From positions 164,656 to 228,655 of the forward strand of contig KQ965739.1 in assembly GCA_001574975.1 (NCBI GenBank): DNA of 64,000 nucleotides, in the 5' to 3' direction. How positions within the stretch are numbered: the stretch's first letter is position 1; each line of letters starts with the position of its first letter. This document shows positions 2,362-56,824 of the stretch, piece by piece. The position numbers and the translations under genes were made by a program. The notes under the pieces are model-generated. The model ran no database searches and had not been told where the DNA came from. It saw only the letters and a program-made list of their open reading frames with translations. The stretch comes from Gonapodya prolifera JEL478. Lineage: Eukaryota > Monoblepharomycota > Monoblepharidomycetes > Monoblepharidales > Gonapodyaceae.

Positions 2362-3188
2362 CACCCTTCACACCCCTCAAGTCTCATCTTCCAAACCAGT
2401 AATGTTCACCTTCAAGAGTTGTACTTATCTGTCACAGTAACGTGGAAGAACCGACCAAGAATCTGGACCATTTCCTTGGGGTTCACAATGCAGCCAGCCC
2501 TTGCACATGATTGGAAGGTTGGCTTCCTAATAACAATTATTTGGGCATCAACAACAAGGTTTTTGCACACATACTCCTTTGTGCTCTTCCTCCAATCTGC
2601 CCTTTGCTCTTCTGATGGCGTCCACTGCGGCGGGTGCTTTGCATGCTCTTCTGCTTCAAACTACTCCACCACATCCTCAGCATGAGCTGCATCATCCACA
2701 GCAAATATTTGGTTCTCTACTGCCATTGTGAACCACTGGAGCTGGCAAAACGTTCTTTTGCAGAGCCACAGGTGGCATTTGGAACAGTGGTTGGCAACAA
2801 TGGCATTAAATCAATCTTTTTGGACTGCGGTGTTGACGGCATATTCCTCTGGAGTCATTACCTGCAAGCTGTTCTGCAAGAGTGTTGCTAAGTGCTCCTT
2901 GTGCGTGCTCTGCAGTTCCTCTGTCACCACTTTCATCCAAGCGCTCTGGCCAGTTCCGGCATCCTTGTCCCCACCAGAGATTTGGAATGGGATCAAATAG
3001 ATTCAGAACTTTCTGTTTGCATTGATGTGGACCATGGAGCACATGCCATGGATAAAATCTTTCTCTCCTAGAGTGCAGAATGAGAGGATAGCAAGTGAGA
3101 AACCAATGGGTTGGCTTAATGTTGGCAGGAAGACATCTGAGGACAAGAAACAGAACAAGACTCATGAAGGTGAGTCAATGGATATTGT

Positions 3189-3435
3189 TACCCGACCTAG
3201 GGTGCTCCATGAGACCTGTGTGCTGCAGGACCATGATGATGTATGAGTATGTGATACATGTGGGGTCTCAGATAGTCTCACCTGCAGGACCATGACACCA
3301 AACGTGCAGTCTGTCCTGCAGGTGTGCTTATGTATCACTACTATGGCCTACTGTGGTCACACTCGCCTATTGCTGCGCCACACTCGCCCACTGCTGTGGC
3401 CACATGTGTGGCTGTCCCCAGCTGGCTGGGTGACA
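3189..3435 (-). repeat. U-family MITE-like element inserted in element E
   Basis: A 247-bp block absent from the matching place in the right E copy (empty site around 19530). It shares with other U copies the terminal cc-acctagg string, two cacctgcagga / tcctgcaggtg blocks and the inner ccacactcgcc..gtggcc region, but is the most diverged complete copy. It is flanked by gatattgt (3181-3188) and gatatgat (3436-3443), 6 of 8 identical, as expected for an aged 8-bp target site duplication. Confidence 0.7.
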
Positions 3436-3670
3436 GATATGATGTGGCGGCCCAACATCATTAGTTGGACTGCATCTAAACTTCCCACATTGGCCCATTC
3501 TGGTATCTTGTCAAGGTAGCAGACACCCTTGCCAGAGATGTGCTGGTGGCCCTCAAACACAATCTGGGTGACAGAAGTTCCAGGTCCAAAATTGATCTTG
3601 CATGCAGCATATCCAAAGATGTTAAGCCTTCTTGCTGGTCAGGCATTGCAAACTCTAGTTCAACATGCAG

Positions 3671-4163
3671 ATGTCACACTGACATCCACTAACGTGAAGT
3701 ATATAGTGTAGTATGAGTGTTGGGTATTAGCTGCTGTGCCACTACTGTGGCCGCGGGTTAGATGTGCACACCTGCAGGACGTGCCTACTACACAACCTAG
3801 GTGAGCTGCACGAGCCTGTAAACTGCAGGAACGTGTAAATGTGATCAAATATACATAACAAGTTGTAATGTGCATGGAACTCACCTGCAGGAATGTGATG
3901 CCAAACTTAGGGCACGTCCTGCAGGTGTGCACATCTAAACCCGCGGCCACAGTAGTGGCACAGCAGCTAATACCCAACACTCATACTACACTATATACTC
4001 CACGTTAGTGTCGTTAGTGGATGTCAGTGTGACAGTGCCCTAAGTTTGGCATCACGTTCCTGCAGGTGAGTTCTATGCACATTACGTCTTGCTATGTACA
4101 TCTGATCATATATACATGTTCCTGCAGATTACAGGCTTGTGCAGCTCACCTAGGTTGTGTAGC
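3671..4163 (+). repeat. U-family element carrying a nested U copy
   Basis: The outer copy runs + strand from gtcacactgacatcc to cctaggttgtgtag, like the complete copy at 17385-17622. It is split at 3787/4035 by a second U in the opposite orientation. The right E copy (around 19300) lacks the whole block, giving an empty site; the flanks catgcag(a) and agcatag look like a worn 8-bp duplication. Both parts of the outer copy are close to the 17385 copy, so this insertion is fairly young. Confidence 0.75.
3788..4034 (-). repeat. U-family element nested inside another U
   Basis: A 247-bp reverse-orientation copy beginning ctacacaacctagg and ending gtcagtgtgaca. It interrupts the outer U between gtgccta (3781-3787) and gtgcccta (4035-4042), a near-perfect 8-bp duplication of a sequence that is single in the uninterrupted copy at 17385-17622. 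Length, short imperfect ends (CTACACA-C / CTGTCACAC) and 8-bp duplication resemble hAT-type non-autonomous elements. No coding capacity. Confidence 0.8.
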
Positions 4164-5485
4164 AGCATAGATGTGCAGAGTGTAGCTATGAAGGGATAAT
4201 AAACCATAGAAGCAATTTTTTGTCAGCTTCAACAAGTGAGCACAGAAAACATGAAACACTGCAGAAAAGGAGAGAGGATACCCACAATGACCTTCATCAG
4301 CTGCTACAGAGGGGACATCTACATCCATAGGATTGTCTTGCCCTTGCGCTATCTGTGGTTGATCAGCTACCATCAAGGACTTGTATAATTCAACATCACT
4401 GGGATGCAGCTAAAAAGTTTATGCAAATTTGTATTCAATGTTATTGCTGGATTTAATGCCCATATGTTTTACCATTCCTCACACAGAGACTCACTACAAA
4501 AAGACTCTTCCAATACCTATCAGTCCCTTCCATGGGATCCAACTTATAACCAGTTACGGCAACTGAACTGGCCTTTTGAGCAGTGCTGGAATCAGGGTTA
4601 AAGAATAGAATACAGGCACCATGGCCATCCATTTCAACAAAAAAATGTTGGGTAGAGGTGCTGTTGTTGGGTTGAACGCTCATCCACAAAGCACAAGACC
4701 TGGTGCAAAGATCCAGTGGAAGAATCCAATGAAAGGGGTCCAAAATTTAGTGGAAGTGTTTAACATGCCAGTCTTATTAAGAGTTTGTGCAGGATCTGCC
4801 ATGTAAAGGGGGAAGACAAGCAAACAATGTTTGGTGGCACTCTACCAGCCAGGAAACCTGAATCTGGGAACTCCGATTCTGGGTGGTGTCCCATCCTTGG
4901 ACTTGCGGTCCATTTGCCATTAGCGTTGCTCTTCAATGTACTCTGCCATCCTCAGCTTGACAAAATCCCCTGAGGGAACTTCTCCACCATCTGTGGAAAG
5001 GTTCAATGGATCAATTGGTTCCATAGAGATCTTGCTCGATGGGACCCTCTGCTTCCAAATGTTGACTAAGTCAAGTATATGGCAGTGGACAAAACAATCA
5101 ACAGTCTCATGTGTGCCCACTGGCAGGATAATCCCAGAGACACCATCTCCAAACTGAAACCTAGTGGATTTATCCTTGGTGAGTGTCAACAATTGAATCC
5201 TGACGAGTATATCACACATGGTCGACACAAAGTCACTTCCTGTGTTCTTGACAAACAAAGAATCGATATTTGTGGACATGATGACCACAGCACGTAAGTC
5301 CACGATGCCGGCAGCAGGCCAAATGCGTCTTTATCGGACAAGTCGAGTCCAAGGTGCTGCGATGTGGCCCTCAGCCAAGCCAAGCTGCGGGTGAAGGAGT
5401 GAAAAGATGACCTTGATGTGTCGGCTTGGGATGTGTGGCGCGAACAATTCTGCCGGTGAAGCCCAGCAAATCGAACAACATCGTG

Positions 5486-12546: not shown

Positions 12547-14997
12547 TCACCATTTTGACCACCCACGGATATCCTGGCGATCCTTTACATCTGCTTCGAG
12601 GCGATCGAATACCTCCTGGAGCTTCACCACAACGTCACTTTCTTCTGTTCCCTGAGAGTTCACACTGGCCCCGCTCGGGTTGGGGTATCCAATGGGGTAC
12701 CCAGGGGTGGTGAAATTGGAGTTCTCATTCAGCGGGGACGGCACTGGTAGCTTCGCTCCTGAACCACTCGACCATCCCCGACCGTATTCAGGTATGCCTT
12801 GCCACAGACTGGAATGCGTTGACGGTTTCGTTGTATTCCGCCCACTATCTGCAGACGAAGACACCGAGTGACCTGTGAAGCTTGGTGACGATTGAGGTAT
12901 ATAGGAAGACGAGGATCCACTAAATGTGGGTGATTTGAATCCGGGCTGCTCGGCGGAAGTCATGGAGACCGCGGGTTCGGGTGAGGGCAGGGCGTACGTG
13001 GGTGGATATGCAATCGACGATCCAAATGATGGGGCGCCAGTCTGAAGCATGGGAAGAACTGGCGAGACCGCCGGATGTTCCATGCTCGACATTTCGTCAA
13101 CGTTGCCGCGGCGGGTAAAAAAACGTGCGATGGACGATTCCCGCGATGGCGCTTCTCGCGATGGCGCTCGACGATAACCCCGTGCCGCGGCAGCTTCTCG
13201 AGCATCCCAAGGTTGAGCGGGTTCAAACTGAGGTGCTTTGCCTGACGAAGTGAAGGAATACGGTAGAGTACGTCAGACCGAGTACATCAGACCAGACAAT
13301 TCACGACATATCACAATGCCCGCGAGCAAGCAATAAACGCCTGCACGTACTTGCTTTCATCCTTCTTGCAACGACGACTCCCAATCCAGACAGCACAAGC
13401 AAAAGTGCAGCGATCCCTCCTCCAACGGCAGCATAGGTTATCCATCCTGGACTATTGTTGGGCGATCCCGGATCTACAGCTCTCGTGCCTGCGTCACCGC
13501 CGCCACCACTTTGACTTGACGGCGGCAACGAGGTGGTACCAGTTCGACCACCCACGGAATTGGCCGCTGCGGTCACCCCCGCAGCACCTCTGCTCGTAGT
13601 TGTTGACGAGGTGCCGTAGTGGGCGAGGAGTGGGTTCCCGGCGTCATCCGTTGCTTCAGGATCTGGTGTACTCGAGGTTGAAGGTGACTGTGGATTCCTG
13701 ACTGTTTGCGTCGCACCATCTGTCGCTGCGGGAGGTGGTTCCTGTGTCACGGGTGCAACACCCGAGGTGGCAGTAGCCGGAGGGGGAGGTAGCGGTGGAG
13801 GGGCACCAGGAGGAGGAGGGGGTGGGGGGGTGGGGCTGCATTGAGCGATTCAGTTGCAAAGTCGGCTTAACAGAAAATGAAGAAGAAAATCTCACGGCGG
13901 CGGCACTCTAATGCGCATTGGTAAAGAAAACAACTGTGTGATCAGGCGACGTAAACAGGCACAAAGGTGGAATAAAACACTCACATTACAGGAGGAGGTC
14001 TTCGGGATGTAATCGCGAAATTGGGATGAAGGCACTATGTAAGCACCATATGAATGCCAAGGAATGCAGCACTTACGGAGGAGGTGGCAGTGCCGGTCTG
14101 CCGATCCCGCAGATGTAAAAGGAGTGAAGCGGTTGAGATTTTGTGAAATTCACGGGCAGCAGCAACTCGACGTTCCAAACTCACGGAGGCGGTGGGGGTG
14201 GGGGTGGGGGTGGAGGGCTTCAACAAACGAACGGATGTGGGTCTCCGAAGAACTGATAAACCAACTTAGTACTTACGGTGGGGATGGAGGTGGGGGCGGT
14301 GGACTTTTAGAAGTGGCGGGAAAGATTGGTCAAGATGATTTTGAGAGCATCTCTTCGTTGATAAGACTTACGGAGGGGGTCGAGGCGGTGGTGGGCTGAC
14401 GAATGGCAGGAAAGTTGGCGTGAGCAAAGCATTGAGACTTTTGAAACCGAGACATACTCACGGCGGCGGTGGTGGTGGCGGCGGCGGAGGTGGATTTCCC
14501 GCCTGAGGAATTGCGAGATGTGAGATAGATGAATGTCGCCCTCCTCCCACCACGGGTCCACATCTTCACGCCCCCAACTAGCGACATCAACTGCCACCGA
14601 ACTCCGCAGTATCACTGAGTCTCCCTTCCACCCCCTTCACGAATCCGAGACACCCGTCAACCTACGACGCATTGGTAGTAGTATGGATTCTTGCAAAATC
14701 AACAAGGTTAGCGAGGAAGAAAAGGTGCGTGTATGCGCCTCAAATCACCTGTACCACACAAGTTGAACCCGCTTGACAACAAGTGGCCCCATTCCAGTTT
14801 ATCCCCCCACATTGATAGTACAGCGCCGAGCACGGTGCACGAGCAAAAATCCTTCGCTCTTGTAACGAAAATTGAGACGATATTTCGGGGTGTTCGTTGT
14901 CAGACTTGCGATCGGTCCCAGCGGTCAAGACCAAGACAGGGATGGACAGCGCAACGACGAGCACCGCCAGTCGCCGCCATGCAGGTGTGGACGCCAT
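12547..14997 (-). CDS. CBM1 cellulose-binding, polyproline-stalk, single-pass membrane protein
   Basis: Eleven exons keep one frame for 541 residues: 14997-14749, 14689-14666, 14502-14462, 14395-14372, 14303-14277, 14217-14185, 14097-14077, 13999-13985, 13907-13896, 13835-13351, 13241-12547. The protein begins with a signal peptide (MASTPAWRRLAVLVVALSIP), then a complete fungal CBM1 (CSALYYQCGGINWNGATCC, AGSTCVVQ, NPYYYQC) whose aromatic and Cys spacing fits cellulose binding. Exons 3-9 are tiny (12-41 bp) and encode almost only proline. Exon 10 continues with PPP-rich and Thr/Ser-rich residues and a membrane span (ITYAAVGGGIAALLLVLSGL, then VVVARRMK). The ~230-residue Ser/Pro-rich tail should be cytoplasmic. 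CBM1 is normally on secreted enzymes. Here it sits on a membrane anchor without a catalytic domain, suggesting a wall/cellulose sensor or adhesin. Micro-exon borders are inferred from phase. Confidence 0.8.
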
Positions 14998-16650: not shown

Positions 16651-17384
16651 CAGCAAAAGAGCTCCTTTGTAAGATTGCTGACCAGTTTGCCAATCAGCAA
16701 CAAAGACTGGTACACCTGCAGGGCAATTCTGATGCAAGAATTGAACCATGTCCACAAAGCTGTCAAGAATGAGATTGCAAAAACGCCTAAGGCAGATTGG
16801 CAATGTTCCATGTGCACCACCTTCTTCTCAATGCTGAGCTATGATGTGCCCTGGACATTGTTGAAAAGAGTGAAGATGACAGAAACTGACTTGGTGAGTA
16901 TGACTCCTTCAAATTTTTGTTTTTGAGAAAGAGCAACTTATTAGAACATTTGAGTTGGGCAATCAGGAAATGAGGAGCAGTGGGGAAAAACCAATCAAAC
17001 TGGGACATGCAGACATGGATTATTGAGGAGTTTGGCATACGCAAGGTTTTTCTGACTGACACATGAACTCATCCACTGTTTTTTCCTCTACATGACAGTT
17101 GGGCAGCACAGCCATTTCCTTGCTCCATGCCATCATGCACTTGTGAGAAAAGAGTTGTGGTGCAATTGCCAATCCAAAGGTGCTGCACAAGCTGCCAAAT
17201 ATGGAGTATTGGAACTTTACATGATTTGCAAGGAGGCTATCCCTAAGTTGCAGTTGCTGCCCTGTGATGGAACAATAAGGAGATAAACAGCATTCTAACC
17301 AGTATTAACTGTCAGTGTGCATATGGGGATCTTCACAGGTACATTGCAGGGATTTTCTCATCTCTGAGCTGCACAAAGCTGCAG
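16651..17384. other. Unassigned repeat-block sequence
   Basis: Only short open frames with no recognisable domain. A 64-codon + strand frame at 17092-17286 is the longest and has no family resemblance I can name. The style of sequence matches the flanking mobile DNA. Confidence 0.4.
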
Positions 17385-17622
17385 TGTCACACTGACATCC
17401 ACTAATGTGGAGTGTATAGTGTAGTATGAGTGTTGGGTATTAGCTGCTGTGCCACTACTGTGGCCGCGGGTTTAGATGTGCACACCTGCAGGACGTGCCC
17501 TAAGTTTGGCATCACGTTCCTGCAGGTGAGTTCTATGCACATTACGTCTTGCTATGTACATCTGATCATATATACACATTCCTGCAGTTTACAGGCTTGT
17601 GCAGCTCACCTAGGTTGTGTAG
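17385..17622 (+). repeat. Complete U-family MITE-like element
   Basis: This 238-bp uninterrupted copy serves as reference for the family. It starts tgtcacactgacatcc, has an internal near-palindrome around cacctgcaggacgtgccc / cgttcctgcaggtgag, and ends cctaggttgtgtag. Flanks agctgcag (17377-17384) and gcatgcag (17622-17629, shifted by one base) are 6/8 identical, fitting an 8-bp duplication. It has no coding capacity. Confidence 0.75.
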
Positions 17623-18224
17623 CATGCAGGTCCCAATGTCAAGCTAAGCAAGTAGACCATGGAGAGATTGCTCTCTTCCCTCACCTGAATTCTTCTTGGC
17701 ACTTCAGACCCTGGTGCTATGCCAAAAAGGATGAGGAGGAATCTGTTCTGGCTGGTTTAATTGCTGGGGTGAACAATAAACTGGAGGACCCAGATATCAG
17801 CGCAGACATAAGGGCAACTGTTGATGCAGTGCCGGGACCATTTGGAGAATTGAGACAGTGACAGTGACTACAATTATGAGAGTGAAGGAGGTGATGCCAA
17901 GGACATGGGTGAAGACGCAGATGGCACAGACATTCCATCTTTCATTGGCTGGCTTGACTGCATGTGGTCAAGGAGCCAGATGACCACAAATGAGTGGAAA
18001 CTTCATGAAAGATTGACAAAGAATTACACAGATTTGGGTGAAATTGATGGGCTGTCCAAGCTGCAAGATGACATGTTGCATCCTCTGATCAAGGAAAGGG
18101 GGCTATACTGCACTCCAAAGAGATCTTTGGCAAATGCCTTGAACAAGGCTCCCTTGGGAAAGCACTCAAAGTCATTGCTGCCATGGTGCAAAAGGAAGGG
18201 GTGAAACTGCTCCCAGCCAAAGGT
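17623..18224 (+). other. Fragment of an unidentified mobile-element gene
   Basis: A + strand frame to 17861 encodes VLAGLIAGVNNKLEDPDISA and nearby residues, and another at 17905-18204 encodes IGWLDCMWSRSQMTTNEWKL and onward. They read like neighbouring parts of one acidic/helical protein interrupted by frame breaks. This part precedes element E on the right side and has no counterpart in the left copy within the window. Family unknown. Confidence 0.4.
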
Positions 18225-20342
18225 TCAAAGGAAGTGACTTTGCATGCACCATGTGTGATATACTCATCAGGATACAATCATTGACACATACCAAGGATAA
18301 ATCCACTAGGTTTCAGTTTGGAGATGGTGTCTCTGGGATTATCCTGCCAGCAGGCACATATAAGACTGTTGATTGTTTTGTCTGCCACCATATACTTGAC
18401 TTAGTTGAAATTTGGAAACAGAGGGTCCTGTCAAGTGAAATCTCTATGGAACCATCTGATCCATTGAACCTTTCCATAGATGGTGGTGAAGTTCCCTTGT
18501 GAGATTTTGTTAAGCTGAGAATGGGAGAGTACTTTGAAGTACAACACTGATGCAAAAAAGTCTGCAAGTCCAAGGATGGGGCACCACCATAATTGGAGTT
18601 TCTGGATTCAGGTTTCCTGGCTGGGAGAGTGCCACCAAACATTGTTTGCTTGTCTTCCCCCTTTACATGGCCAACCCTGCACAAATTCTTAACAAGACTG
18701 GCATGTTAAACACTTCCACTAAATTTTGGACCCCTTTCATTGGATTCTTCCACTAGATCTTTGCACCAGGTCATGCGCTTTGTGGACAAGTGTTGGACCC
18801 AACAATAGCACCTCTACCCAAGATTTTTCTTTGAGACAGATGGTCATGGTGCCCGTTTTCTATTCTTTAACCCTGATTCCAGCACTGCTCAAAAGGCCAG
18901 TTCAGTTGCCATAACTGGTTATAAGTTGGATCCCATGGAAGGGACTGATAGGTATTGGAAGTGTCTTTTTGTAGTGAGTCTCTGTGTGAGGAATGGTAAA
19001 ACATATGGGCATTAAATCCAGCAATAGCATTGAATACAAATTTGCATAAACTTTTTAGCTGCATCCCAGTGATGTTGAATTATACAAGTCCTTGATGGTA
19101 GCTGATCAACCACAGATAGCGCAAGGGCAAGACAATCCTATGGATGTAGATGTCCCCTCTGTAGCAGCTGATGAAGGTCATTGTGGGTATCCTCTCTCCT
19201 TTTCTGCAGTGTTTCATGTTTTCTGTGCTCACTTGTTGAAGCTGAGAAAAAATTGCTTCTATGGTTTATTATCCCTTCATAGCTACACTCTGCACATCTC
19301 TGCATGTTGGACTAGAGTTTGCAATGCCTGACTGGCAAGAAGGCTTAACGTCTTTGGATATGGTGATGCACAAGATCAATGTTGGACCTGGAACTTCTGG
19401 CACCCAGATTGTGTTTGAGGGCCACCAGCACATCTCTGGAAAGGGTTTCTGCTACCTCAACAAGATACCAGAATGGGCCAGTGTGGGAAGTTTAGATGTA
19501 GTCTGATTAGTGACGTTGGGCAACCACATCATATCCATTAAGAGGAGTGAGTCTCACTCCTCTTGTTTTTGGCCATCTTCCTGGCAACACTGATCCAACC
19601 CATTGGCTTCTCACTCACTGTCCTCTGATTCTGCACCCCAGGAGAGAAAGATTTTATCCATGGCATGTGCTCCACAGTGCACATTGACGCAGATGGAAGG
19701 TTTCAAATCCATTCCATCCCATTTCAGAATTCTGGTGGGGACAAGAATGTTGCACTGGCCAGAGCACTTGGATGAAGGCAGTGACAGAGGAACTGCAGAG
19801 CATGCACAAGGAGCACTTGGCACCACTCTTGCAGAACAGCTTGCAGGTAATGACTCCAGAGGAATACACCGTTAACACTGCAGCCTGTAAAGATTCATTT
19901 AATGCCATTGTTGCCAACCACTGTTCCAAACACCACCTGCGGCTCTGCAAAAGAAAGTTTCACCAGTTCCAGTGGTTCACAGTGTCAGTGGTGAACAAAA
20001 TATTGGCTGTGGATGATGCAGCTCATGCTGAGGATGTGGTGGAGCAGTTTGAAGCAGAAGAGTGGGCAAAGCACCTGCTGCAGTGGACCCCATTGGAAGA
20101 GCAAAGGGCAGATTAGAGGAAGAGCACAAAGGAGTATGAGTGCAAAAACCTTGTTGTTGATGCCCAAATAATTGTTATCAGGAAGCCAACCTTCCAATCA
20201 TGTGCAAGGGCTGGCTGCATTGTGAACCCCAAGGAAATGGTCCAGCTTCTTGGTTGGCTCTTCCATGTTACTGTGACAGTACAACTCTTCAAAGGTGAGC
20301 ATTACTGGTTTGGAGGATGAGACTTGGGGGGCATGAAGGGTG
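18225..20342 (+). mobile_element. Unclassified element E, right copy
   Basis: This + strand copy matches 5245-2362 on the - strand for its full length once the two U insertions in the left copy are removed (about 2.1 kb each). Conserved conceptual pieces in order are TRFQFGDGVSGIILPAGTY, WKQRVLSSEISMEP, IAQGQDNPMDVDVPSVA, INVGPGTSGTQIVFEGHQ and a 115-codon open frame at 19772-20116 (TEELQSMHKEHLAPLLQNSL). Homology stops at about 20342. No transposase, polymerase or other known domain is visible. Together the two copies form an inverted pair around four host genes. Confidence 0.65.
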
Positions 20343-25049: not shown

Positions 25050-26045
25050 TTAGTCGAACAGACCTAAGAAGTGACGAAGGGAGTTCAAGTTGACTGCCAA
25101 GGTTTCCAAGAAAAGCAGGAAACGTACCGAAGCCCATGTCGTCATCTTCCTCTTCTTCCTTCTTTTCCTCCTTCTTCTTCTCCTCCTTCTTGCCCCCCTT
25201 TTTGTCATCGGCGGGAGCTAATAGAAAGGTCGTCATGGAACCAGTCAGGGCGACAAAGCAGGTTCTGAGGTTCAAAAAACATCGCGTCTCGCATCTGAGT
25301 GTCCATTTTGTATCGCTTCCTCATCCAGCTGTATGTCCACTGTTGTTCTAAGTTTATTTGAGCATGCAGGGCGATTCTCCAGCAATGAACCTCTCGAAAG
25401 TCCACCTGTCACGCGCCAATCGCACACAACGCTCACCATCGGCTGCTGGCGCTGCCGCAACAGGTGCAGCTACGGATACCGACGCGGTAGGGGCCTCGGA
25501 GAAGTTGGTGAAGTGGGCGGCGAGGTCGCGGCCCTCCAGCGCCTTGGCGAAGAGTTTGGCCCAAATGCCCTCCATCTCAATGCCGGCTGCCTCCACAAGC
25601 TTGATGATCTTGTCAGCCTGAGAAGAAAGCAATTGAAGAATTGAGGCAGTGTCGTTGAACGGGTTCATTGAAAAGCGGGGAAGGTGGTTCAGAGCCCGGA
25701 CTTGACCAAGAGCAACCTTCCCATCTTCGCGTAGGATTCCCAGCGTAGCCGTTCCCCACCATCGCCCGCTCCTTGTCCATGAACGGGGACGGAAGACAGT
25801 CTCATTGAGTCTCCAGGCAGTGAGTGTTCCCCGTAGTCCAATAGTCCTGGCCTCCATTGGCACCTTCTCAATGTCCATCGCATAACAGTCCACGCACCGT
25901 GACAGGGAGGCCCTCATCGACGAGAATCAAGGCGGCGTCTGATTCCAGAAATCAGGTCAATGTCGTGCGATTGGAGTCACGTCAACTTCACAACGAGGCA
26001 CTCACAAGCGCACGCCTGCTCGTTGGGTCCGAATTCAGCAGCCAT
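25050..26045 (-). CDS. 60S acidic ribosomal protein P1
   Basis: Component of the ribosomal stalk that recruits translation factors. Five exons, 26045-26006, 25938-25898, 25617-25437, 25217-25128 and 25063-25050, give 121 residues. The N terminus (CAYAALILVDEGLPVTADKI) and LVEAAGIEMEGIWAKLFAKA are typical of P1. An Ala-rich hinge follows, then a long Lys/Glu run, and the universal stalk terminus DDDMGFGLFD. The charged hinge (KKGGKKEEKKKEEKKEEEE) is longer than usual. The intron before exon 4 (219 bp) and the one after exon 2 (279 bp) are long for this genome, as is often seen in ribosomal protein genes. The last exon is only 14 bp. Confidence 0.95.
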
Positions 26046-53535: not shown

Positions 53536-56500
53536 TCATTCGTCATCCTCCTCTTCTTCTTCACTCTCTTCTTCCTCCTCCTCGTCTTCCTCTTCTTCCT
53601 CTTCTTCCTCTTCTTCCTCCTCCTCTTCTTCTTCCTCCTCGGCTTGGTCGAGCCACGAAATAAACGGCGCCACCTGACGTTGACGTGACCAGACACGAAA
53701 TTTTCAATCATCAGACATACAAGGATCGACCTGACGACGACGACGACGACGCTGAAACCCACCTTACTTCGCAGCCTCTGCTTCTCTTCGGTCCACCCCT
53801 GCTCACCCTCCTCAATTTCCCTCTTCGTCCGACTCCACCAACGCCTGACGACATCCTCTGGCAGCACGTTCAGGTCGTAGAGCTGCTTCAGGAAAAGGGG
53901 AAGAACGCGGTCACAAGATGGGGTTGGGTTGGGGGGGGTCGAAGAGGCGATTGACGACACCGAGGTTTGAGACTCGGTGGAAGACAGGGGCGGAACGGCC
54001 ACCAAATAATTCTAGGTGGCGGGGGAAACAAAAACACAAAAAAAGCGGCTCAGTGGTGGCACACGGTGCCCGAACAAACAAAGTTTACCAACCAAAGTTA
54101 AATCAATCACTTCTTCTCGATCCTTGGCGTCGAAGACCATGAGTCCGATGAGTTTACCCCATTTGGCCACAAACTTCTCCCATTCCTTTCCTCCTCTGGA
54201 GTGCAAGGACACCACTTCTTCCACAATTCGAGGGACTACCACTCTCCGAACTTCGTCCCAACTCGTGTTCTCGGCCATTTTCGTCGTGGAGAGCTCAGAG
54301 TGAGCGTCAACGTACGAGTGGTTTTCTCGGATCGCGCGGCTGATTGTTTCCAAGATCTCGCGTCGGATACGCTTGGGCAGCGTCGTGGTGATTGTCCTCG
54401 AAAACTCGGCCTCGTCCGAATCATCGTCAATGTCTGAATCATCCTCCTCTGATGAATCGTCTGAAAGCTCGTCCTCGGATGACGCCGAGTAGTATCCCAT
54501 GGGATCGACTGTGGAAATCTGGGATGACGTGCGAGTGCCTCGCGATGCAGTTGTTGCGTTTGGTGGGCTCGTCGCGGTAGGTGTCGTGGGGGGTGCGGGT
54601 AGAAGAGTCCCGGGAGCCATCACCAGGTCATAAATGTTGCGACCTGTAATGTTAAAATTGACGAATGGACCTAAAAAAGGGAATACTGGGACGCTGAACT
54701 CACCGATTTCGTCGATTAATAGATTTCGCGCGTCGAAATCTTCAGTCTCTTCTTCTTCGCCATACCGCGTAGCAAACACCCAGCCTTTGCCCTGTTCACC
54801 CGGTGCTTTCTGGTGTACTAACTCGTCCTCCTCCTTGACGGTCGCTTCGTCCTCCTCGTCCGCTTCATCTTCGTCATCAAGATCACCACCCATCACCCGT
54901 TCTTGTTGTCGCGGGCTTAGACGTGTCAACTTTGTGAAAGGCGGAACCACCACGTTCGGTCCCACAGCAGTGCCCGCTCCAAGAACGCATCCGCGATCAA
55001 CAGTGCTTCCCGCTTCTATGGTGACGTCCTCCGCCAGTATCGACTTGTATATGACGCAGCCGTCTTGTACGACACACCCATCCCACAGGTAACTTCCTTC
55101 GATGACACACTTTGCGCCGACGGTGACATTCTTGCCCAAAACAGAGTCCCGTATCACTGTGTCAGCACCAACCACAGTTCCTGGTCCGACCTGTACATTC
55201 GCTGCGAGAAGAGTGGTCCGAGCTAGAGTAACTTCGTGCGCCTTCTTATCCAGGTTTATTGGAGAGAGCGCTTGCATGGATCCCTTGCGGCCACCTGGCA
55301 TTTGCTTTGAAGGCGCCGCATTTCCAGCTGGTGGAACACGCGACGCACTAGGACGATACACATTGCCGCGATGATGACGATAGGCATCCCCAGGAAGGAA
55401 ATTAGAGTCTGGGACGAGTGGGTACGTCAGCCGGGTCAGCATGTCTTGACTGCAGTCAGTCAAAACAACAATCAAATCAGTTTTAGTTGTTGAAATCGCT
55501 TATCACATCGTGCGACACAGACCTTACTCCGGCATACATTGCCGTGCTCGTGACCCGAGCACCATAGGTTCCGTACCCAGCAACGCTGTTGTCGTTCACA
55601 ACGAAAGCCGAAAATGTCTTCCCCAAAATCTCTGACATCATTACACCACGCACAAAGTCTGCGCGAACATCAGCGTAATCGAAGTTCTCCGTAAACAAGG
55701 GTGGAATATCGATAGAGCAAATATCCACCCCAAGATCCAAAAGGTCCGACCGAAGGCTGAAGGTAGTGGGACGGTACGTCGCATTTGGCGGTGTCACGAA
55801 GTGTGTTCCGGGGAGAGTAATGGACGACTCTTTGGAGTGAGGCCCGGTTGCGCCAGGTGAGAAAAGAGGGAGGGAGGTGTAGTGATGGCATTGACCTGTA
55901 GAAGAGTCGATCATGTACAGCGGAGTGGACCCGCGCGGGCGTGATCGAGTGGGAGCAGGTTGGTGTGCAAGGCACATCGTCATGATGAGGTTTTTGTCTA
56001 CAGTGCGTCGCTTCCTTTCAGACAAGACATTCAGATCCAGCGAATCCATCAATGTGAACGCTTGTGAGTCAAAAGAGGAGGAACACGGAACCCTGAGTCG
56101 ACTCTCACTTGTGATACTCCAAAGCCGCTTTCAAATTCCAGTTCCCGACAATGTCAGCACAATGAACGAGCACAAAGTCCGCTTTCACAATGCCTTGTCG
56201 TCGATCGATTTCCCTTAAAGCGTCTCCGACAGAAAATAATTGTTGAACCTGGATAACGTGGATGCGCGGGATGCCTGCTGGCAGAGCCGATTGGGGAGGG
56301 TAGTACCATTTCGAAGAGCTGGTGCAATAACTCAATCAGGATACATAGACCATTGATGGTAATGGAGAAACTTCCGAATCATCGGTCCATCATTCCGCGG
56401 TTGCCATTCACTTCGTCGTGTCTGAAGAAGACCGCCTATGACCAAAACGAACCTTATATATGCCGATATTTGCTCTCCATGTGCACAACAAACGACATAA

Positions 56501-56824
56501 ATCTCCTGAACTCCATTAGCTGCGAGAAACTCCAACGAATACTCGATGATGGGAACGTTGGCGAGTGGTAACAAGGCCTGGACGTGGAATGGTAGATTAA
56601 ATGATATTCACATGAATCTCACATCAGTTGATAAGATGGAGTCTCACCCGGGGCTTCTCCAATGAGACGGGCCTGAATCGATTGTTGAATGAATCGGCAA
56701 CCACGATCGCAAGGAGGGGGATCTCCTCGGGCTCAAGGCCATCAACAGGGCCTCCTGATGATTTATCGCGGCCACTACTCGCGCCTGATGCGTTGGCTCC
56801 ACCAGATGCAGCCCCACTGGACAT
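53536..56824 (-). CDS. Translation initiation factor eIF2B subunit epsilon
   Basis: Catalytic subunit of the guanine-nucleotide exchange factor for eIF2 (yeast Gcd6). Exons are about 56824-56648, 56577-56453, 56318-56109, 56014-55523, 55449-54704, 54643-54093, then two more ending at 53536. The nucleotidyl-transferase-like N domain has ALLPLANVPIIEYSLEFLAA and VQEIYVVCCAHGEQISAYI. The left-handed beta-helix follows (NVQVGPGTVVGADTVIRDS, CVIEGSYLWDGCVVQDGCVI, EAGSTVDRGCVLGAGTAVGP). An acidic linker precedes the catalytic W2/HEAT domain (ILETISRAIRENHSY, EVVSLHSRGGKEWEKFVAKW). The end is APFISWLDQAEEEE, the AA-box that contacts eIF2, extended into a run of about 35 residues that is nearly all Glu. 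The donor after exon 4 is weak (gtctgt). The acidic tail is encoded by a long ctt/cctc repeat. Confidence 0.93.

Follow-up and report, generated by a model that had tools for sequence, protein, structure and literature searches.

The window, that is, the whole 64,000-nucleotide stretch of Gonapodya prolifera JEL478 contig KQ965739.1 analyzed here, carries on its minus strand (14997-12547) a gene predicted to encode a membrane protein with a CBM1 domain. The predicted model has 11 exons, and its exon-by-exon translation is open over 541 residues with zero internal stops. Exon 1 (14749..14997, 249 nt) encodes a hydrophobic N terminus and most of the CBM1 and is followed by intron 1 in phase 0, with donor gtgatt; exon 2 (14666..14689, 24 nt) supplies the final part of the domain, NPYYYQCV, and also ends in phase 0, at donor gtaggt. 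Exon 3 (14462..14502, 41 nt), in which the stalk begins, is an asymmetric adapter leading from phase 0 to phase 2, and behind it lie six micro-exons bounded by phase 2 on both sides, namely, exons 4 (14372..14395, 24 nt), 5 (14277..14303, 27 nt), 6 (14185..14217, 33 nt), 7 (14077..14097, 21 nt), 8 (13985..13999, 15 nt), and 9 (13896..13907, 12 nt). Exon 10 (13351..13835, 485 nt) encodes the end of the polyproline stalk, a Ser/Thr-rich linker, and the predicted transmembrane helix, and exon 11 (12547..13241, 695 nt) encodes the predicted cytoplasmic tail and contains the stop codon.

The lengths, coordinates, and phases of exons 3 to 9 (13896-14502) agree exactly with those given in the initial annotation, which had also correctly described the junctions: all of the seven exons except exon 8, which ends GTA AT, have CC as their last two bases, the first base of each of exons 4 to 8 completes a Pro codon (that of exon 9 completes an Ile codon, ATA), and the donors are nearly identical (GTGAGT in three introns, GTAAGT in three, and GTGAGA in one). 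Introns 3 to 9 measure 66, 68, 59, 87, 77, 77, and 60 nt, so that the range of about 40 to 90 bp stated earlier has to be narrowed to 59 to 87 nt, and all seven are in phase 2. Exon 2, at 24 nt and in phase 0, constitutes an additional micro-exon outside the array of seven, and intron 2 (14503-14665, minus strand), at 163 nt, is twice as long as the stalk introns, with no proline island seen inside it. In exons 8 and 9, the proline run is interrupted by Val-Ile-Val.

Other features of the window were also recorded. The CBM1 gene region lies between the two copies of an ∼3-kb repeat (2362-5244 and 17381-20342), which are mostly in opposite orientations, 88 to 92% identical over their longest pieces, and partly rearranged, with an internal inverted repeat at 3672-4034; this repeat is possibly a transposable element. 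A 60S acidic ribosomal protein gene (25050-25668, minus strand; Pfam E value, 2.8e-22) has a predicted last coding exon of 14 nt that encodes the conserved C terminus and may represent an independent case of a micro-exon in this genome. An eIF2B epsilon gene (53536-56824, minus strand; LbH domain E value, 2.4e-29), with a long glutamate run at its predicted end, and a cytochrome c peroxidase-type peroxidase are encoded as well. Together with the CBM1 and others, these two genes indicate a fungal gene content.

The predicted domain order of the CBM1 protein comprises a hydrophobic N terminus, the CBM1, the polyproline stalk, the Ser/Thr linker, a transmembrane helix, and the tail. The CBM1 at residues 59 to 87 belongs to PF00734, matching the Pfam profile over its full length (positions 1 to 29 of 29) with 46.9 bits against a gathering cutoff of 20.6 (E value, 2.5e-12), and it aligns with the solved CBM1s of cellobiohydrolase I (1cbh and 5x39) with the tyrosines retained, suggesting a head that would bind cellulose. 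The stalk consists of 74 residues, 63 of which are Pro, and the linker consists of 111 residues, 33 of which are Ser or Thr. Hydropathy peaks at 2.33 over residues 285 to 305, the predicted transmembrane helix, and the predicted cytoplasmic tail begins near residue 306 and extends for ∼235 residues. No Pfam family besides CBM1 was detected in the whole protein; the tail is without a match, and neither a WSC nor a sensor domain was found. Searches of prokaryote and viral sequence collections returned no relatives. The hydropathy profile supports both the hydrophobic N-terminal segment and one transmembrane segment and is consistent with a predicted topology in which the product would be a single-pass (type I) fungal surface protein.

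Several lines of evidence indicated that the C-rich islands are coding. The first two bases of the stalk Pro codons are fixed as CC, while the third base is free (A in 19, T in 19, G in 13, and C in 12 codons), a pattern showing that the islands code for proline and expected under selection on the protein, not from a C-rich tract as such. A pure microsatellite was rejected, given the roughly even use of all four Pro codons. Moreover, all islands share one common frame, which continues into the transmembrane exon, and exon 2 cannot be joined directly to exon 10 in phase, which makes at least exon 3 necessary. The window contains nine copies of the motif CCGTRAGT, where 2.8 would be expected, and stalk donors account for five of the nine. 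In the target region, seven micro-exons form a frame-compatible chain, and six of the seven have equal phase and a length divisible by three. The longest chain was four (three when equal phase and a length divisible by three are required) among the 752 other windows of 670 nt, counting both strands, and three (two) in 1,000 dinucleotide shuffles of the region. A different reading, in which exon 2 would use donor gttgac and the following junctions would be in phase 0, converts the islands into linker-like Ser/Thr/Ala/Pro sequence; this candidate failed, with a stop in exon 10 and the transmembrane frame missed. Overall, the frame, the codon pattern, the splice sites, and the chance tests support well, at the level of sequence, the earlier proposal that a CBM1 membrane protein carries a polyproline stalk encoded by micro-exons, and the predicted gene structure is very probably real.

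Some splice-site and gene-finder results count against this structure. According to our own splice-site profile, learned from 72 predicted, unverified introns in the window, introns 1, 5, and 6 have weak acceptors, which rank within the top 40 to 65% of all AG dinucleotides. A simple gene finder trained on the remaining window with an ordinary intron cost left the micro-exons out, which is expected of exons so short that none of them singly outweighs the cost of an intron; when that cost was set low, far too many introns were predicted, and the result was discarded. The gene finder also placed the start of a downstream gene at 13918, and the unspliced CBM1 reading meets a stop after six bases of intron 1, both of which would fit two separate genes, one for a secreted CBM1 protein and one for a downstream membrane protein starting near 13918, with the islands being nonexonic. 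We regard this arrangement as highly improbable: the final part of the CBM1 requires the removal of intron 1 (40.8 bits and 25 of 29 profile positions with intron 1 unspliced versus 46.9 bits and 29 of 29 with it removed), the downstream product alone would be without a signal peptide, and in-frame CCN islands with matched donors would be left unexplained.

The initial annotation had stressed that exons 4 to 9 are each a multiple of three. This is true but is not independent of the phases, because equal intron phase necessarily makes these exons multiples of three, and the single fact needing explanation is that seven consecutive introns are in phase 2. Of the introns predicted in the rest of the window, 28 are in phase 0, 22 in phase 1, and 22 in phase 2, giving a chance of 2.5e-4 for seven of seven in phase 2 and of 1.8e-3 for any common phase, which is notable but not overwhelming. 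The donors also stand out, with GTRAGT in six of the seven stalk introns compared with 18 of the 72 predicted introns elsewhere in the window (binomial P = 0.0013), and such donors would offset the unfavorable CC that precedes them in the exon. In our donor profile, phase 2 is the lowest-scoring donor position in a CCN tract; thus, the phase lock is unexplained by splice-site preference.

That splice-site preference does not favor phase 2 in a CCN tract, together with the common phase, the common CC ends, and the alike donors, would be accounted for if a single proline exon had been duplicated in tandem together with its intron, in which case the exon number may vary among strains. This account concerns origin and is compatible with either a fixed or a variable stalk. 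We consider it possible, though less probable than not, as all exon lengths differ and no intron pair among 21 is alike beyond chance (smallest P value against shuffled sequence, 0.01, which is not above chance after allowing for 21 pairs); any duplication would have to be old, and the description of the array as an exon-level repeat finds little in its favor. Repeated insertion of introner-like elements into a polyproline tract appears distinctly improbable. Fungi do have such elements, which after a short time can no longer be told apart from ordinary introns (PMC4457414), but the stalk introns match neither one another nor other sites in the window beyond short chance matches, and the mutual similarity that defines introner-like introns was thus absent within the window. 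The lack of intron similarity leaves both recent duplication and recent introner insertion unsupported; older events of either kind may have occurred.

A further property of the array concerns intron retention. All seven stalk donors are GTRAG, and behind a phase-2 junction, a GTRA donor causes the intron to open with TAA or TGA as its first complete codon, so that each of the seven introns, if retained, reads Pro-stop at once (Met-stop for intron 8). In introns 3 to 7, no in-frame stop other than this donor-derived one is present within the intron; for introns 3 and 6, whose lengths are divisible by three, retention would escape notice without it. Because introns this short fairly often lack further stops by chance, the immediate stop is a consequence of the lock and weak evidence of its cause. 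Farlow et al. (2010) described in Drosophila that phase 2 combined with GT(A/G)A produces an immediate stop on retention and argued that nonsense-mediated decay helps to establish new introns (PMC2809761). The same phase-2 stop rule has been described in Yarrowia, in which loss of UPF1 or UPF2 leads to the accumulation of unspliced transcripts and alternative splicing consists mostly of intron retention (PMC2911113). Judged from the predicted introns, the immediate stops would point to decay of unspliced transcripts at least as well as to isoform variation.

Isoform variation was the earlier proposal, in which the array was seen as a built-in means of varying stalk length, with any of exons 4 to 9 skippable without a change of frame. 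The frame statement was borne out in that all 64 of the 64 skipping combinations stay open, with stalks of 30 to 74 residues containing 26 to 63 prolines and steps of 4 to 11 residues per exon; exon 3 (41 nt) is the only stalk exon whose skipping shifts the frame. Such variation would be permitted by the frame; the same lock gives a stop on retention. Combinatorial skipping of exons 4 to 9, producing a family of stalk lengths from one gene, would be aided by the CC/N codon split, which preserves Pro at nearly every junction after skipping, and has parallels in the alternatively spliced micro-exon arrays of schistosome MEGs (PMC10526429) and in titin PEVK, whose length is determined by splicing (PMC8553726). 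Nevertheless, we hold it to be rather unlikely: frame preservation follows automatically from shared intron phase, without any need for selection for skipping; the Yarrowia fungal comparison shows mainly intron retention (PMC2911113); and the stalk donors are closer to the intron-side consensus than other donors in the window. The fuller proposal, that the fungus tunes the reach of the CBM1 head by micro-exon skipping and that retained introns, by ending translation after a given exon, also give rise to soluble CBM1-polyproline forms, seems quite unlikely.

We favor, with about even confidence, a CBM1 surface protein with a largely constitutive polyproline stalk, whose phase lock would stem from old common descent or from selection for visibility to nonsense-mediated decay. 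In this protein, the CBM1 cellulose-binding head would be held off the membrane by an extended, presumably stiff polyproline stalk of ∼74 residues, and the seven stalk micro-exons would be spliced across their short introns via intron definition, probably routinely, yielding one main stalk length. The common phase 2 might have arisen because the introns derive from one old exon-intron unit; alternatively, introns may have been gained in a growing CCN tract and retained preferentially where GTRAG gives a stop, with transcripts carrying unspliced introns being destroyed. Intron-retaining transcripts would either be destroyed or yield short secreted forms. If spliced as read, the gene would offer a compact natural test of why adjacent introns share a phase, considering that the predictions differ, within one 600-base region, among shared descent, selection for decay of unspliced transcripts, and exon skipping that is of use. 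It may also exemplify a type of gene that automatic annotation breaks, given that the simple gene finder missed the micro-exons.

Fungal wall sensors of the WSC/Mid2 type combine a signal peptide, an extracellular head, a Ser/Thr-rich region, one transmembrane helix, and a cytoplasmic tail, and the predicted layout of the CBM1 protein is alike, except that a CBM1 replaces the WSC domain, a polyproline stalk is present, and the tail has no Pfam match. Phase-2 GTRA introns visible to nonsense-mediated decay share with the stalk introns the immediate in-frame stop when retained (PMC2809761, PMC2911113), whereas here seven such introns are consecutive and lie inside one low-complexity segment. The array further resembles the MEGs of Schistosoma mansoni, in which a secretory-pathway protein is likewise encoded by an array of very short exons, the majority of them multiples of three (PMC10526429), and it shows the corresponding architecture, with exons 4 to 9 of 12 to 33 nt, all multiples of three, behind a hydrophobic N terminus. 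However, with introns 3 to 9 of 59 to 87 nt and CBM1 as the sole Pfam domain, the gene falls outside the schistosome MEG family proper and has a MEG-like layout only; it is fungal, its stalk introns contrast with MEG introns of 0.1 to 5 kb (PMC10526429), and its predicted product is a low-complexity polyproline protein with a CBM1 head and a transmembrane anchor. The titin PEVK exon array is similar in that exon choice governs the length of a proline-rich spacer (PMC8553726), which in the present gene the frame would allow; the titin PPAK repeats comprise 26 to 28 residues and their splicing was shown experimentally (PMC8553726), compared with 4 to 11 residues per exon and predicted splicing here. 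Micro-exon arrays and length-variable, proline-rich exon arrays are thus already known, while the predicted fungal polyproline array, of which no other example was found in literature searches covering openly available papers, appears to be new.
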